Position numbers and translations under genes: made by a program. Below, one piece after another: positions 29,890 through 35,450 of a stretch of 64,000 nucleotides of DNA. The stretch lies in assembly GCA_025357915.1 (NCBI GenBank), contig JANYLH010000064.1, positions 1 to 64,000 on the forward strand. The letters are read 5' to 3'. A model generated the notes under the pieces. It was given only the letters and a program-made list of their open reading frames with translations, made no database searches and was not told the DNA's origin. The stretch is from Gammaproteobacteria bacterium (GTDB taxonomy: Bacteria; Pseudomonadota; Gammaproteobacteria; Steroidobacterales; Steroidobacteraceae). The stretch's first letter is position 1; the number at the start of each line of letters is the position of its first letter.

Positions 29890-30726
29890 ATGGATCAACT
29901 GGTCACCACCGACTGGCTCGCGGCGGAGCTGGCGAGCGCGGATCTCGTGGTGCTGGACGCCACGTGGTATCTGCCCGCCGACCCGCGGAATGCGCGCGCG
30001 CTGTATTCCAGCGCGCGCATTCCCGGGGCACGTTTCTTCGACATCGACCTGATCGCCGATCGCGAGAGCGCGCTCCCGCACATGGTGCCCACGCCGGATG
30101 AATTCGCACGGCGCGTGGGCGAGCTGGGCGTGGCGAATGCCAGCCGTGTCGTCTGCTATGACCAGCACGGCATATTTTCGGCGCCGCGCGCGCGCTGGAT
30201 GCTGCGTCTGTTCGGGCACGACCAGGTCGCCGTGCTCGACGGCGGCTTGCCCAAGTGGCGCGCCGAGGCGCGCGCGCTCCAGAGCGGCCCGCCGCAACCC
30301 GTCGCGCCAGCGCGGTTCCGGAGCGCTTTGCGCGCCGGGCTGCTGCGCGGCCTCGGCGACGTGCGCGACAACCTGCAAACACGCCGCGAGCTTGTGATCG
30401 ACGCGCGGTCGACAGACCGGTTTCATGCGCGCGTTCCCGAGCCACGCGCGGGATTGCGCGGCGGCCATGTGCCGCTCGCGCGCAATCTGCCGTTCGGAGA
30501 ATTGCTGACACCGCGGCAGACCTTCCGGCCGGCGGCCGCGCTGCGCGTGCGTTTCGCCGCGCTTGGTGTGGACGAAAGCAGCGCGGTCATTACAAGTTGC
30601 GGCTCGGGCCTGACCGCTGCGATCCTGAACCTGGGGCTCGCGCTCGCGGGACTTCCTGAAGGCGCGCTGTACGATGGTTCCTGGACAGAATGGGCTGGGC
30701 GCGACGACACGCCCGTGGAGACCTGA
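29890..30726 (+). CDS. sseA: 3-mercaptopyruvate sulfurtransferase (rhodanese family)
   Basis: A 278-residue two-domain rhodanese. The active-site loop is CGSGLTA, matching the CGSGVTA of mercaptopyruvate sulfurtransferases, not the CRKGVT of thiosulfate sulfurtransferases. The inactive N-terminal domain includes VVLDATWYLPADPRNA and ARIPGARFFDID. It transfers sulfur from 3-mercaptopyruvate to thiols or cyanide in the cytoplasm. The GST gene begins 1 base after its stop, so they are coupled. Confidence 0.92.
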   Translation: MDQLVTTDWLAAELASADLVVLDATWYLPADPRNARALYSSARIPGARFFDIDLIADRESALPHMVPTPDEFARRVGELGVANASRVVCYDQHGIFSAPRARWMLRLFGHDQVAVLDGGLPKWRAEARALQSGPPQPVAPARFRSALRAGLLRGLGDVRDNLQTRRELVIDARSTDRFHARVPEPRAGLRGGHVPLARNLPFGELLTPRQTFRPAAALRVRFAALGVDESSAVITSCGSGLTAAILNLGLALAGLPEGALYDGSWTEWAGRDDTPVET

Positions 30727-30727
30727 A

Positions 30728-31345
30728 GTGATTACGCTTTATGACTATCTCGATTCCGGCAACGGCTACAAGGTGCGGTTGTTGCTCGCGCAGCTGGGAA
30801 TGCCCTACCGTTACGTGGAACTCGATATCATGCGCGGCGCGACCCGCACGCCGCAGTTCCTGGCGATAAATCCCGACGGGCGCATCCCCACACTCGAGCT
30901 TGAAGACGGCCGACACCTGGCGCAGTCGGACGCGATCCTCTGGTACCTGGCGGATGGCACGGCATTCGTGCCCACTGAAAAATTTGCGCGCGCGCAGGTC
31001 TTGCAGTGGATGTTCTTCGAACAGTACAGCCATGAGCCGAATGTCGCGACGCCGCGCTTCATCGTGCGGCATCTGCCCGCCGACAGTCCGCGCCGCGCGG
31101 AACTGCTGCAGCGCCTGGCGCGCGGGCGCGAGGCGCTCGCGGTAATGGAAAGGCACCTGCAGTCCCGCAGCTACTTTGTCGGCGAGCGCTACAGCATCGC
31201 CGACATCGCCCTGTACGCGTACACGCACGTGGCCGAGGATGGCGGGCTCGAGCTTGCGCCATTCCCGCAGCTGCGCGCCTGGCTGGCGCGGGTCGCCGGC
31301 CAGCCGCGCCATGTGCGCCTGCTCGATCGCCCCACCCAGGGCTGA
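30728..31345 (+). CDS. Glutathione S-transferase family protein
   Basis: A 205-residue GST. The thioredoxin-like N-terminal domain opens ITLYDYLDSGNGYKVRLLLA, where Ser in the DSGNGYK segment is the probable activating residue. PDGRIPTLELEDG and LAQSDAILWYLA form the glutathione site. The helical C-terminal domain contains VGERYSIADIALYAYTHVAE. The start is GTG 30728 just after the sseA stop; an ATG upstream lies inside sseA. The substrate is unknown. Confidence 0.9.
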   Translation: MITLYDYLDSGNGYKVRLLLAQLGMPYRYVELDIMRGATRTPQFLAINPDGRIPTLELEDGRHLAQSDAILWYLADGTAFVPTEKFARAQVLQWMFFEQYSHEPNVATPRFIVRHLPADSPRRAELLQRLARGREALAVMERHLQSRSYFVGERYSIADIALYAYTHVAEDGGLELAPFPQLRAWLARVAGQPRHVRLLDRPTQG

Positions 31346-31389: not shown

Positions 31390-31713
31390 ATGCGATCCCG
31401 GCGGCATGCGGGTTTTTCTCTGGTCCTGGCGCTGATCATCCTGATCGCGCAACTGGGCGCGCAGGCCCATGCCTACTCCCACCTCGCGAAGTCGCCCGAC
31501 CCCGCGCAGCGTCATGCGCATCCGGCGCCCTGTGTCGAGTGCAGCGCTTTCGCGCCGCTCCTGGCGGCGGTCAGCGGTGTGTCCTATCCGGTCGTCGCCG
31601 CTGCCATCGAACCGCCGACGCTTGGCGGCATTTTCACGGCCGGGCTTCACCGCACCGCCGCCCATCCCGCCTATCGTTCCCGCGCGCCACCCTTCAGTCC
31701 CCGCTCCGGTTAA
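31390..31713 (+). CDS. Small membrane/secreted protein, DUF2946-like
   Basis: A 107-residue protein with an N-terminal hydrophobic helix (FSLVLALIILIAQLGAQAHA). A His/Cys pattern follows: AHAYSH, RHAHPAPC and CVECSAF, then a second hydrophobic patch and a Pro/Arg tail. The HxH...CxxC arrangement resembles DUF2946-type proteins often found beside metal-transport genes. It is probably the first gene of the metal-uptake locus that follows. Metal binding is inferred from residues and context. Confidence 0.7.
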   Translation: MRSRRHAGFSLVLALIILIAQLGAQAHAYSHLAKSPDPAQRHAHPAPCVECSAFAPLLAAVSGVSYPVVAAAIEPPTLGGIFTAGLHRTAAHPAYRSRAPPFSPRSG

Positions 31714-31766
31714 GGACCGGGCGCCACGGCGCCTGGCCTCCTCGAGACGACTGATGAGGTGCTGTC

Positions 31767-33173
31767 ATGTTTCCGTTCCTTCGTGCAAACACTTTGTGTG
31801 GTGTCGCGTTCATTGCGCTGCTGGCCATGGCGCCGGCGCATGCTTCCGAGGTGAGCGAGCTGCGCGCGCAGCTTGACGCGCTCAAGTCCGACTACCAGGC
31901 GAAAATCCAGGCGCTCGAATCGCGGCTGGCGCAACTGGAGAGGCAGGTGGCGGCGACGCCACCGGCAGCGGCGGCCGCTGAGCCGCCCCCATTCGCGCCG
32001 GCGCCATCGCCGCCGGCAGGCGGTGGTGGCGCCAATGCCTTCAACCCAGCGATCTCGGTGATACTCGGCGGGCGTTTTGCGCAGCTCGACGCGGATCCGG
32101 CGAGCTATCGCATCGCCGGCTTCATGCCTGCCGGCGATGGGGTTGGGCCGGGGCGCCGCGGTTTCGATCTGGGCGAGTCCGAACTCACGCTGGCGGCGAA
32201 CGTCGATCCGTATTTCTTCGCCAATCTCACCGCCTCGCTCAGCGGCGAGGACACGCTCAGCGTGGAAGAGGCCTACCTCAAGACGCTGGCGCTCCCTTCC
32301 GGGCTGTCGCTCAAGGCCGGCCGTTTCTTCTCGGGGCTCGGCTACCTGAACGAAGTGCACAGTCACGCCTGGGACTTCGTCGATCAGCCGCTGGTGTACC
32401 AGGCCCTGTTCGGCGGCCAGCTGGCGCAAAACGGCGCACAGCTCAAATGGCTGGCACCCACCGATCTGTTCATCGAGCTGGCGGCCGAAACCGGCAACGG
32501 TGAGCGTTTTCCGGGAACGCACCTGGCACACAACGGTCTCAACGGTGCTGCGCTGCTGGCGCACGTGGGCGATGATGCCGGTGATTCGGTCAGCTGGCGT
32601 GCCGGACTTTCCTGGCTCTCGCAACGCGCCGAGAACCGCGCCTTTGCCGACGTCACCGACACGGGTGGCGCGGTGCTCGACGCCTTCACCGGCCAGTCGC
32701 GCACCTGGGTGGCGGATGCGATCCTCAAGTGGTCGCCGCACGGCAATGCCAACCTGCGCTCGTTCAAGCTGCAGGCGGAATACCTGCAGCGCACCGAGGA
32801 TGGACAGCTGGCGTTCGCCAGCACGCAGCAGGCGCTGTCGGACAGTTACCGCGCACGCCAGTCCGGCTGGTATCTGCAGGGTGTCTATCAGTTTCTGCCG
32901 CGCTGGCGCTTCGGCGCACGTTACGACTCGCTCGACTCCGGCGACCCGGCCATCGGCCTGGTGCAGCACGCCGTGCTGCCGCTCGCCGACTTTGGTGCGC
33001 TGGCGCCGGCGACGCCGAGTCGTGTCAGCGCCATGTTCGACTGGAACCCGAGCGAGTTCTCGCGGCTGCGCCTGCAGTACGTCTGGGACGACGCGCGCAT
33101 GGACGTGCGCGACCGGCAGTTGATGCTGCAATATCTTTTTAGTATCGGCGCCCACGGCGCCCATAAGTTCTAG
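31767..33173 (+). CDS. Outer-membrane beta-barrel protein of a metal-uptake locus
   Basis: A 468-residue outer-membrane protein. After the signal peptide (ending MAPAHASE) a coiled coil (ELRAQLDALKSDYQAKIQAL) and Pro-rich linker precede the barrel (AISVILGGRFAQLDADP onward). The last strand ends LMLQYLFSIGAHGAHKF. There is no TonB box or plug domain, so it is more channel-like than a classical TonB receptor. A possible His-rich end (GAHGAHKF) is present. It is followed 8 bases later by a periplasmic metal-binding protein, hence a role in metal passage is inferred. Confidence 0.78.
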   Translation: MFPFLRANTLCGVAFIALLAMAPAHASEVSELRAQLDALKSDYQAKIQALESRLAQLERQVAATPPAAAAAEPPPFAPAPSPPAGGGGANAFNPAISVILGGRFAQLDADPASYRIAGFMPAGDGVGPGRRGFDLGESELTLAANVDPYFFANLTASLSGEDTLSVEEAYLKTLALPSGLSLKAGRFFSGLGYLNEVHSHAWDFVDQPLVYQALFGGQLAQNGAQLKWLAPTDLFIELAAETGNGERFPGTHLAHNGLNGAALLAHVGDDAGDSVSWRAGLSWLSQRAENRAFADVTDTGGAVLDAFTGQSRTWVADAILKWSPHGNANLRSFKLQAEYLQRTEDGQLAFASTQQALSDSYRARQSGWYLQGVYQFLPRWRFGARYDSLDSGDPAIGLVQHAVLPLADFGALAPATPSRVSAMFDWNPSEFSRLRLQYVWDDARMDVRDRQLMLQYLFSIGAHGAHKF

Positions 33174-33181
33174 GAGTGAAC

Positions 33182-34093
33182 ATGAACCGATCAGCCTGCG
33201 CAGCGATGGCGATCCTGATATCCATGGTCGCGGCAGCGACGCCAGCGCAGGCCGCGCTGCGCGTGCTGGCCACGACCCCTGAGTGGGCGGCGCTCACGCG
33301 CGAACTGGGCGGCGACAAAGTCGATGTGTACGCCGCAACCAGCGCCTTCCAGGACGTACACCGCGTCGATGCCAAGCCGAGCCTGGTGGCGCGCGCGCGC
33401 AATGCCGACATGGTGGTCGCCGCGGGCGCGGATCTGGAGGTGGGGTGGTTGCCGATCCTGTTGCGCGAATCCGGCAATGCGCGTATCCAGCCGGGCAACC
33501 CCGGTTACTTCGAGGCCGACGCGAGCCTGCGCCTGCTGGAAATTCCGACGGCCGTCGATCGCTCAATGGGCGACGTGCATCCGCAGGGCAACCCGCACGC
33601 ACACCTCGATGCACGCAATGTCGCGATCGTGGCGGCCGCGCTGACGGCGCGCCTGAAGGCGGTCGATGGCGCCGATGCGCCGTACTACGAGGCGCGCGGA
33701 AGTGATTTCCAGGCGCGCTGGAAAGCCGCGCTGGCGCGCTGGGAGGCGCAGGCCGCGCCGCTCAAGGGCATGCCGGTGGTGGTGATACACCGCGACCAGG
33801 TGTACCTGTGCCGCTGGCTGGGGCTCATCGAGGTTGCCGCCATCGAGCCCAAGCCGGGCGTACCACCCAGCAGCAGCTACCTGGCGGAGCTCGTGACCCG
33901 TCTCACGGCGACGCCGCCGAAGCTGATCCTGCGCAACGCCTACAACGATTCGAAAGCCGTGGACTGGCTGTCGGCGCGCATCCACGTGCCCGTGGTCCTG
34001 CTGCCGTATTCGGTGGGCGGCACGCCAGGTGCAAAAGACCTGTTCGGGCTCTTCGATGACACGATCAACCGGCTGACGGGAGTCACCAAATGA
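33182..34093 (+). CDS. ZnuA-like metal ABC transporter substrate-binding protein
   Basis: A 303-residue cluster A-I (zinc/manganese) binding protein. A signal peptide (ending TPAQAALR) leads to ATTPEWAALTRELGGDKV. Candidate metal ligands are His in DVHRVDAKPS, His residues in GDVHPQGNPHAHLD and His in VVVIHRDQVY. It binds Zn or Mn in the periplasm for the permease that follows. ATG 33182 has AGGAG 5 bases before; a GTG 6 bases earlier is possible. The stop overlaps the permease ATG. Confidence 0.9.
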   Translation: MNRSACAAMAILISMVAAATPAQAALRVLATTPEWAALTRELGGDKVDVYAATSAFQDVHRVDAKPSLVARARNADMVVAAGADLEVGWLPILLRESGNARIQPGNPGYFEADASLRLLEIPTAVDRSMGDVHPQGNPHAHLDARNVAIVAAALTARLKAVDGADAPYYEARGSDFQARWKAALARWEAQAAPLKGMPVVVIHRDQVYLCRWLGLIEVAAIEPKPGVPPSSSYLAELVTRLTATPPKLILRNAYNDSKAVDWLSARIHVPVVLLPYSVGGTPGAKDLFGLFDDTINRLTGVTK

Positions 34094-34866
34094 ACGCGTT
34101 GGCCGAGAATTTCAGCATCCTGTGGCCGGCGCTCCTGGCCGGTGTGATCGTGCTCGCAACGCACGTGCCGCTCGGCCAGCAGGTGCTGGCGCGTGGCATC
34201 GTGTTCATCGATCTCGCCATCGCGCAAGTCGCCGGCGTGGGGGTGATCGCCGCGCATTACTTCGGGCTGGAAGTGCAAGGCTGGGTGACGCAGGTCGCGG
34301 CGGTGAGTGCGGCGCTGCTGGCGGCGCTGCTCCTGACCTGGACCGAGCGCAAGCGCCCGGAAGTGCAGGAAGCGCTGATCGGTGTGCTGTTCGTACTGGC
34401 CTCGACCGCGCAGATCCTGCTGCTGGCCAATGATCCGCATGGTGGCGAGGACCTCAAGGACCTGCTGGCGGGCCAGATTCTCTGGGTCACGCCGGCGCAA
34501 CTGCTGCGCGCAGCGATACTGACGGCACTGGTGCTGCTGGCCTGGTTTGGATGGCGCGAGCGTCTGGGCCGCACCGGCTTCTACGTGCTGTTCGCGGTGA
34601 CGGTGACCGTCTCGGTGCAACTGGTTGGGGTCTACCTCGTATTCACCACCCTGATCGTTCCAGCCATCGCGACTTATCGCTATCCGGTGGCGCGGCAACT
34701 CGTGATCGGCTATGCGCTGGCGGCGGTCAGCTATGTGGCGGGGCTGGTGATCTCGGCGCTGAGCGATCTGCCCTCGAGTCCGGTGATCGTCTGGGCAATG
34801 GCCGCGATCGGCGTACTGGTGCTGCTCGCGCAGCGCTCCGACGCCAATCGGGCCGGCAGGTCCTAG
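34090..34866 (+). CDS. ZnuB-like metal ABC transporter permease
   Basis: A 258-residue polytopic inner-membrane permease of the ABC-3 family, with about eight hydrophobic segments. LARGIVFIDLAIAQVAGVGV and VSVQLVGVYLVFTTLIVPAI are conserved parts. It starts at ATGA overlapping the binding-protein stop. No ATPase (ZnuC) is found in the window: the next gene is a convergent nitroreductase. The pair therefore depends on an ATPase encoded elsewhere or is diverged. Its end overlaps the nitroreductase end by 4 bases. Confidence 0.88.
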   Translation: MNALAENFSILWPALLAGVIVLATHVPLGQQVLARGIVFIDLAIAQVAGVGVIAAHYFGLEVQGWVTQVAAVSAALLAALLLTWTERKRPEVQEALIGVLFVLASTAQILLLANDPHGGEDLKDLLAGQILWVTPAQLLRAAILTALVLLAWFGWRERLGRTGFYVLFAVTVTVSVQLVGVYLVFTTLIVPAIATYRYPVARQLVIGYALAAVSYVAGLVISALSDLPSSPVIVWAMAAIGVLVLLAQRSDANRAGRS

Positions 34867-35450
34867 AGACTGAACGGCCCTTCGCACACGCTCTGCGCCA
34901 GCGGCCGCCGATCGCTCGGCACCTCGCGCTTGCGCAGGGATTCGCTCAGTCCGGCCGCGTCGCCTCGTTTGCCGATCACGATCATGGCCTCCACCGCGTA
35001 GCCGGCCGGAACACGCAGCACGCGCCGCGCGCGTTCGTAGTCGAAGCCGCCGATGCCGTGCGCGACGAAACCGCTCAGCGATGCCTGCAGGGCCAGGTTC
35101 TGCCAGGCGGCGCCGGCGTCATAGGAGTGCGTCGTGCACGCACGTCCGTCGCCGTCGTAGTGCGTGCGCGATATGACCAGCAGCAGGGCCCCGGCGTGTT
35201 CCGCCCAGATCCGGTTGCCGGGATTGAGCAGATCGAGAAACGCCGGCCAGAAATCCGTGTCGCGCCGGGCGTAGAGAAAGCGCCACGGCTGGAAATTTCC
35301 GGAAGAGGGCGCCCAGCGCGCGGCCTCGAGCAGCGTCATCAACTCCGCCTCGTTGAGAGCTTCGCCCGACATCGCCCGGGACGACCAGCGGTCGAGGAAC
35401 AACGGAGCAATCGGGTGTTCGGCCCGTCTGTGGTCGCTGCCCTTCAACAT
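34863..35450 (-). CDS. Nitroreductase family protein
   Basis: A 195-residue FMN-dependent nitroreductase-fold protein. RWSSRAMSGEALN starts the family core (RRS-type FMN motif), followed by EAARWAPSSGNFQPWRF and, near the C-terminus, VAHGIGGFDYERAR. It probably reduces quinones or nitro compounds with NAD(P)H. There is no signal peptide. It is convergent with the permease and divergent from dodecin. Confidence 0.9.
   Translation of the reverse strand: MLKGSDHRRAEHPIAPLFLDRWSSRAMSGEALNEAELMTLLEAARWAPSSGNFQPWRFLYARRDTDFWPAFLDLLNPGNRIWAEHAGALLLVISRTHYDGDGRACTTHSYDAGAAWQNLALQASLSGFVAHGIGGFDYERARRVLRVPAGYAVEAMIVIGKRGDAAGLSESLRKREVPSDRRPLAQSVCEGPFSL

Follow-up and report, generated by a model that had tools for sequence, protein, structure and literature searches.

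The locus described here raises the question of how a metal could cross the inner membrane through a permease of the ATP-binding cassette (ABC) type that has no ATPase gene beside it. The ATPase is regarded as indispensable to ABC importers that depend on a binding protein. The locus lies in the first 64,000 nucleotides (hereafter the window) of contig JANYLH010000064.1 (assembly GCA_025357915.1), from a Gammaproteobacteria bacterium of the Steroidobacteraceae, the genome of which counts 2.67 Mb in 87 contigs and is 93% complete. Genes for a small His/Cys protein, an outer-membrane barrel, a ZnuA-like binding protein and a ZnuB-like permease had been predicted from the letters alone to follow each other on one strand (hereafter the original prediction). 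They do (Table 1): their products match Pfam families, the set recurs in other genomes, and no ABC ATPase gene, ZnuC included, is found within the window. The genes of the binding protein and the permease overlap by 4 bases and encode the sole PF01297 match and the sole PF00950 protein of the host genome. From the comparisons below it appears moderately probable that the set is a zinc-starvation import module, with a permease of ABC descent that would be uncoupled from ATP.

The gene order was compared across genomes, as the original prediction had proposed, and it recurs in 120 further loci, i.e. 20 neighbourhoods of relatives, 80 loci from species genomes and 20 from a sample of the phylum, two pairs of which are identical DNA (L068/L092 and L072/L127). 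Among 60 related genomes, that of the host included, 21 have a close permease (at least 53% identity) and three only a distant one. The 20 neighbourhoods of relatives hold porin, binding protein and permease without an ABC ATPase in the operon, the contig of L064 ending inside the binding protein gene. In 84,980 species genomes scanned, 568 loci were confirmed. The best 80 of these belong to records labelled gamma-, beta-, alpha-, zeta- and deltaproteobacteria, and they keep the order porin, binding protein, permease wherever the contig allows. Of the 20 phylum loci, four have no recognised porin and one is truncated by a contig end; the others show the same order. Overall, the outer-membrane protein was detected in 110 of the 120 loci; six others are cut by contig ends (L064, L095, L120, L126, L141 and L172) and four have no recognised one (L173, L176, L179 and L191). 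Such recurrence is far beyond chance. The permease family (E below 1e-28) is present in 44 out of 398 sampled phylum genomes, by our own count from two lists, and in 36 of these 44 an ABC-3 match at E 1e-20 is present as well. Outside the close relatives, the set is often an extra system.

Next, an ATPase was sought beside the set. A ZnuC-type ATPase occurs in the operon in none of the 20 neighbourhoods of relatives and in none of the 100 further loci. In the 60 related genomes, by contrast, each of the 14 strong canonical ABC-3 loci (E below 1e-30) has an adjacent ATPase. The ATPase profile, built from 15 host sequences, found the ATPase in 10 out of 10 canonical loci, nine of them chosen via ZnuC-model matches, and the remaining strong loci were then added to give the 14. 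A linked ATPase in close relatives, which the original prediction had named as evidence against its idea, is absent for this permease family (0 of 120 loci), and only G046 and G059, described below, come part of the way. The one ATPase directly behind a permease, in L110, is an ABC-F protein. In L132, the same strand carries upstream a MacB/Zrg-like set that includes an ATPase, plus a partial gene, L169 has a match to ABC_tran only, 1.2 kb downstream of the set, and other ABC ATPases near the sets are further off or on the opposite strand. Four single-contig genomes (G023, G275, G278 and G421) carry porin, binding protein and permease without an ABC ATPase in the operon; the missing ATPase is therefore not an assembly gap. 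No other ABC-3 match was found in G023, and none at E 1e-20 in the other three, and the ZnuC-model scores of all four are at most 103.8 bits, versus 347.9 bits in the Vibrio-like G241.

The host itself was searched for an orphan znuC, as had been suggested. From 45 ABC_tran matches, 30 were fetched as loci and 27 scanned with NCBIfam (L051-L053 were left out). Among the families listed, no ZnuC, AztA or MntB-type model appears for 26 of the 27, and the best ZnuC-model score in the host is 104.6 bits, in a 635-codon frame. The other ATPase, on C66 (L050, 1240-2028, minus strand), is of the FecE/heme type, without an adjacent permease, and has AztA as its fifth-best model (143.9 bits), behind the F420-0, heme, corrinoid and Fe-dicitrate models. 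The only FecCD permease of the host is encoded on the same strand, 3.4 kb upstream, and would be a likelier partner for this ATPase than the window permease.

The permease itself differs from canonical ones. It matches PF00950 with 78.1 bits (cut-off 20.1, E 9.8e-22), in two pieces that skip profile positions 143-169, and the same split is seen in 20 of the 21 carriers among the relatives. In an alignment of 121 permease rows (the window plus the 120 loci), the interval from W132 to Q177 measures 44-48 residues in all rows except a fragment from L132, versus 65 residues in 11 and 64 in one of 12 canonical rows. The family permeases are thus 17-21 residues short at one junction (120 of 121 rows). 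Canonical rows numbered eight initially and 12 in this later comparison; the permease profile missed L087 and L197. A solved ZnuB (PDB 9oko) also has the extra segment. The remaining junction is net positive in 116 of the 121 rows and is therefore probably cytoplasmic. In the AlphaFold2 model (pLDDT 89.5), helices 135-154 and 156-179 meet almost directly at this point, and the structure match (VIA) of the model is PsaB (7kyp, Z 23.6, root-mean-square deviation 3.4, 244 residues aligned). In PsaBC and MntBC, the membrane domains are joined to the ATPase domains by coupling helices (PMC11779740). We infer that the segment absent from the family is the coupling helix on which an ATPase would dock.

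Two residues of the presumed metal path are changed as well. Position 46 is Gln in 120 of 121 family rows and His in six of eight canonical rows; position 94 is Glu in 120 of 121 and Asp in seven of eight. These are the His and the second Asp of the Asp-His-Asp triad, essential in MntC (PMC8487065), which the family permeases do not form. Their membrane residues are strongly conserved, with 46 invariant columns in an alignment of the family. A motif P-x-[LFI]-A-x3-G is present in all eight canonical rows first used and in none of the 121 family rows.

A sister operon offers the closest comparison. In G046 and G059, of the same order as the host, a porin ending GAHGAHTF, a binding protein, an ATPase and an ABC-3 permease follow each other in this order. 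Porin and binding protein are homologous to those of the window, and the permease belongs to another branch. G488 and G485 hold binding protein, ATPase and permease on fetched stretches that end before any porin. The sister permease was found in four out of 296 genomes of the order. Its W132-Q177 interval is 65 residues in all four, and position 46 is Gln in three and Tyr in that of G485. The segment thus goes with the ATPase, and the change from His to Gln is independent of ATPase loss. Compared with the window, the sister operon shares the homologous porin and binding protein and Gln46, but has both the ATPase and the full-length segment. In a first tree, a single branch (99/92) sets all family permeases apart. 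Once the sister permeases were included, in a tree of 28 family rows with long branches, the family was no longer kept together in this way, unlike the 11 canonical rows (100/100). It is possible that ATPase and segment were lost in one lineage, or that they were regained in the sister.

The binding protein of the window matches PF01297 with 122.8 bits (cut-off 29, E 2.4e-35). Its three His residues are conserved in 120 rows as follows: His60 in 112 (4 gaps), His139 in 113 (3 gaps) and His203 in 118 (2 gaps). Gaps aside, the exceptions at His60 and His139 are four porin-less paralogues only. These porin-less pairs of binding protein and permease (L173, 4137-5929; L176, 4257-6013; L179, 4009-5906; L191, 4917-6675, minus strand) have Asn60 and Tyr139 instead of the metal His. 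The pair in L176 is divergent from a CbbQ gene (PF08406) and a vWA gene, with L173 and L179 similar by eye, and these pairs might serve carbon fixation rather than metals.

The outer-membrane barrel had been predicted to lack a TonB plug and to end in GAHGAHKF, which holds true. No plug domain was found in the Pfam scan nor in the secondary structure predicted by AlphaFold2, in which the model (pLDDT 87.2) has about 16 strands and a coiled-coil helix at residues 25-63. Without a plug, the protein does not qualify as the TonB-dependent receptor suggested by the published name 'omr'. The best structure match (VIA) is the phosphate porin OprP (2o4v, Z 28.7, root-mean-square deviation 3.1, 317 residues aligned). 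The 16-stranded porin fold is common to both; the identity is only 17%, so the likeness to OprP/OprO is one of fold and not of family. The siderophore porin LbtU was rejected as well (NCBIfam model 25.9 bits, cut-off 90). An H-x-x-H occurs within the last ten residues of 110 out of 111 of these outer-membrane proteins, the exception (L107) being a broken frame. The barrels of Vibrio and L184 carry an additional His-rich loop.

Zinc is the likely metal of the route. The search for Zur boxes, also proposed by the original prediction, was successful at relatives and not in the window itself. In Vibrio campbellii (L194), the Zur-type boxes TGTTATGCTATAACA and TGTTATAACATAACA stand directly before the porin gene, and a related box precedes the porin gene in two Vibrio-like genomes (L182/L183). 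L146 has a box just before the small gene, and in L184 one precedes the genes for DUF1826, an AztD-like protein (113.8 bits, cut-off 400), porin, binding protein and permease. In L132, an exact Zur-type palindrome is flanked on one side by a ZigA-like GTPase gene (565.8 bits, cut-off 600) and on the other by genes for a MacB-type ATPase, a permease and DUF3299, which lead into small protein, porin, binding protein and permease. Together with the set, this region (L132, 1989-5392) looks like one zinc-starvation island. A Fur-family gene was found near only one set (L075), 5.5 kb away. The consensus used for scoring is the one we take to be typical of Zur boxes. Its core is shared by a Zur site of Vibrio given in PMC9817125.

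According to the same paper, zinc deficiency raises the expression of V. parahaemolyticus znuBII 283-fold, znuAII 543-fold and omr 1034-fold; these three genes (VP_RS21430-21420) form an operon for which its Table 1 lists no ATPase. In an earlier study (PMC3794297), deletion of vpa1307, which is znuAII by the later paper's account, inhibited growth by about 70% in TPEN, and two histidines were needed together for this phenotype. As the family is carried by L182, L183 and L194, the Vibrio proteins can be compared: the first two His residues of their binding proteins are 79 residues apart, like H69 and H148 of Vpa1307, and the third His of Vpa1307 is printed as 202, ten short of the prediction from the Vibrio family proteins. 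Judged by gene types, order and His spacing, omr-znuAII-znuBII is very probably the same operon; its genes match the last three of the window set in type and order, and no ATPase is listed among them. It was published as a TonB-dependent receptor plus an ABC transporter, and no remark on the missing ATPase or segment was seen in its reports.

The comparisons show the anatomy of the set, its conservation, the deletion in the permease and the link of this deletion with the presence of an ATPase. The activity of the permease, its direction and driving force, and the cargo at the window are inferred and can be pictured as follows. Zinc would pass the outer membrane via the porin and be held near its periplasmic His tail, where the small protein may help. 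The ZnuA-like binding protein would then take the zinc and dock on the permease, which, lacking the segment for docking an ATPase, would pass the metal inward without ATP, possibly driven by the membrane potential, a co-ion or cytosolic trapping. The permease would thereby act as a channel or as a secondary transporter that needs a binding protein and has an ABC importer as its ancestor. More generally, we would give an even chance to the idea that such porin-fed metal importers, dependent on a binding protein and independent of ATP, are widespread and arose when an ABC permease lost its ATPase and docking segment.

Several points weigh against this reading. The missing segment is presumed to be the docking helix by homology with BtuC-type permeases. 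The P-x-[LFI]-A-x3-G motif is absent from three of the four later canonical rows and from the sister permeases and hence not universal, so segment length is the better mark. The change from His to Gln removes a metal ligand and also occurs in the ATPase-bearing sisters; Gln46 is therefore no mark of ATP-free transport. The C66 ATPase could serve the window permease. Moreover, diverged ATPases could escape the ZnuC model: two canonical partner ATPases reach only 87-89 bits with it, and at E 1e-45 three out of six canonical ATPases have no NCBIfam match. The box screen is weak, with at least 11 of 12 matches in three of 101 upstream regions versus one of 194 controls. The window was scanned separately from these regions, and unlike the published zinc-responsive Vibrio operon, it has no Zur-type box with up to 3 mismatches. 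Finally, deletion of znuAII alone caused no growth defect in V. parahaemolyticus RIMD2210633.

The original prediction had suggested that the ATPase may be borrowed, i.e. that the permease belongs to a normal ABC importer using an ATPase encoded elsewhere. An ATPase is often at hand, since the 36 phylum-sample carriers mentioned above hold a canonical ABC-3; the C66 ATPase of the host, with AztA as its fifth-best model, and the sister operon, which pairs this porin and binding protein with an ATPase, also speak for it. However, the presumed docking segment is lost in 120 of 121 rows, 19 of the 21 carriers among the relatives lack the canonical ABC-3 that would bring ZnuC (G029 and G051 have one), and the C66 ATPase has a FecCD permease nearby. 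With the docking segment missing from the family and the sister keeping both ATPase and segment, borrowing is unlikely. What stands of the original prediction is a metal route from outer to inner membrane that is conserved, has no ATPase gene and includes a barrel without a plug; the lending of an ATPase, for which the host offers one possible candidate on C66, is not supported.

It seems just as improbable that the permease no longer transports and acts as a sensor or as a docking site for retaining or recycling the binding protein, with another importer moving the metal. The lost motor site, the changed path His and Asp and the other importers present in many carriers would agree with this, but the membrane residues and the ligands of the binding protein are strongly conserved, some carriers are without any other ABC-3, and the phenotype of the Vibrio binding protein depends on its histidines. 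A slightly smaller chance is given to the same machine with another cargo, i.e. copper, manganese, cobalt or a metal chelate instead of free zinc. Here, the replacement of the path His by Gln, the OprP-like barrel, the CxxC of the small protein and the box-less window are set against the three His ligands of the binding protein, the zinc-linked neighbours and Zur-type boxes at relatives, and the Vibrio zinc phenotypes. Import of zinc by an ATP-uncoupled permease remains the reading we prefer.

Among known systems, ZnuABC, PsaBCA and MntBCA have the same binding protein family, permease family and fold as the window set, which differs from them in that ATPase and coupling segment are missing, path residues are changed and a porin of its own is present. 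Parts of the zinc importer AztBC were considered and rejected (NCBIfam AztB 53.5 of 280 bits, AztC 55.4 of 350 bits). The ECF S-components BtuM and solitary BioY, said in PMC6072759 to transport without their motor, are precedents for such uptake. Each is likewise the membrane subunit of an ATP-driven class, but with an unrelated fold, no binding protein and a vitamin as cargo. Uptake by TRAP transporters is dependent on a binding protein and free of ATP. They would work alike with unrelated proteins, making this an analogy only, and a Pfam scan of the window proteins shows no Dct-type TRAP families.

No description of an ATPase-less ZnuB family was found in the literature searched, where most subscription papers lay outside reach. 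The zinc response in Vibrio is already known; what appears new is a large family that has neither the ATPase nor the permease segment required for using one. If true, the family would allow one to ask what a binding protein and a membrane subunit achieve without ATP, with the ATPase-bearing sister operon as a matched comparison, and in what way an importer driven by ATP becomes a channel or a secondary transporter. In annotation, the family permeases of the 44 phylum genomes would be read as ZnuB, and zinc physiology is perhaps misinferred. The published Vibrio zinc operon would be recast, and the label 'TonB-dependent receptor' for its porin is put in question.

Table 1. Features of the locus (window positions) and of the sister operons (positions in the fetched loci)
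Feature	Position	Strand	Basis or remark
Small secreted His/CxxC protein with R-A-P-P-rich C-terminal tail	31390-31713	+	Open reading frame call, Pfam
Porin-like outer-membrane protein, N-terminal coiled coil, plug-less	31767-33173	+	AlphaFold2, structure match
GAHGAHKF C-terminal tail of porin	33147-33170	+	H-x-x-H conservation among the outer-membrane proteins
ZnuA-family binding protein, His60/His139/His203	33182-34093	+	PF01297
ABC-3 permease, ZnuB/PsaB fold	34090-34866	+	PF00950, AlphaFold2, structure match
Gln46 replacing path histidine of canonical permeases	34225-34227	+	Permease alignment
Glu94 replacing path aspartate	34369-34371	+	Permease alignment
Permease junction lacking ~19 residues of canonical permeases (putative coupling helix)	34543-34578	+	
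Nitroreductase	34863-35450		Converges on permease stop
Sister operon, L201	2075-5747		Porin, binding protein, short 190-residue ABC ATPase, permease
Sister operon, L202	4854-8538	-	Porin, binding protein, short 190-residue ABC ATPase, permease

The small secreted protein of the window is weakly DUF2946-like (E 0.011, below the family cut-off in Pfam), and those of relatives give weak DUF2946 or DUF2607 matches. Ahead of the porin gene, 84 of 96 sets (window included) have an open reading frame of 55-260 residues with R[AGS]PP close to its end, versus four of 87 control stretches, and 72 of these 84 frames contain CxxC. Length and ending were the sole criteria for this count, made in sets with enough upstream DNA, and some matches (e.g. 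L098) may be due to chance. A GC-rich inverted repeat lies between the small and porin genes (31714-31766 in the window, also in L062, L063 and L066); the sequences differ and the placement is alike by eye, perhaps pointing to an attenuator or mRNA stabiliser. Genes for a 3-mercaptopyruvate sulfurtransferase-like and a GST-like protein (window 29890-31345) precede the small gene on the same strand at a distance of 45 bases. The pair is also upstream in L062 and L063 and may share a transcript with the small gene.

The nitroreductase which the original prediction had placed directly after the permease, convergent to it, is indeed there. As a neighbour, it is common only to the nearest relatives, and for the same reason the nitroreductase, GST, sulfurtransferase and M48 genes were rejected as partners of the set. 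Broken porin or permease frames occur in draft contigs (L107, 5778-7073; L171, 3-1532; L132, 8001-9342). A His-rich protein (L136, 8707-9768, and three other loci), which we assume to be perhaps a cation-diffusion exporter, follows the permease in three of the four loci holding it.

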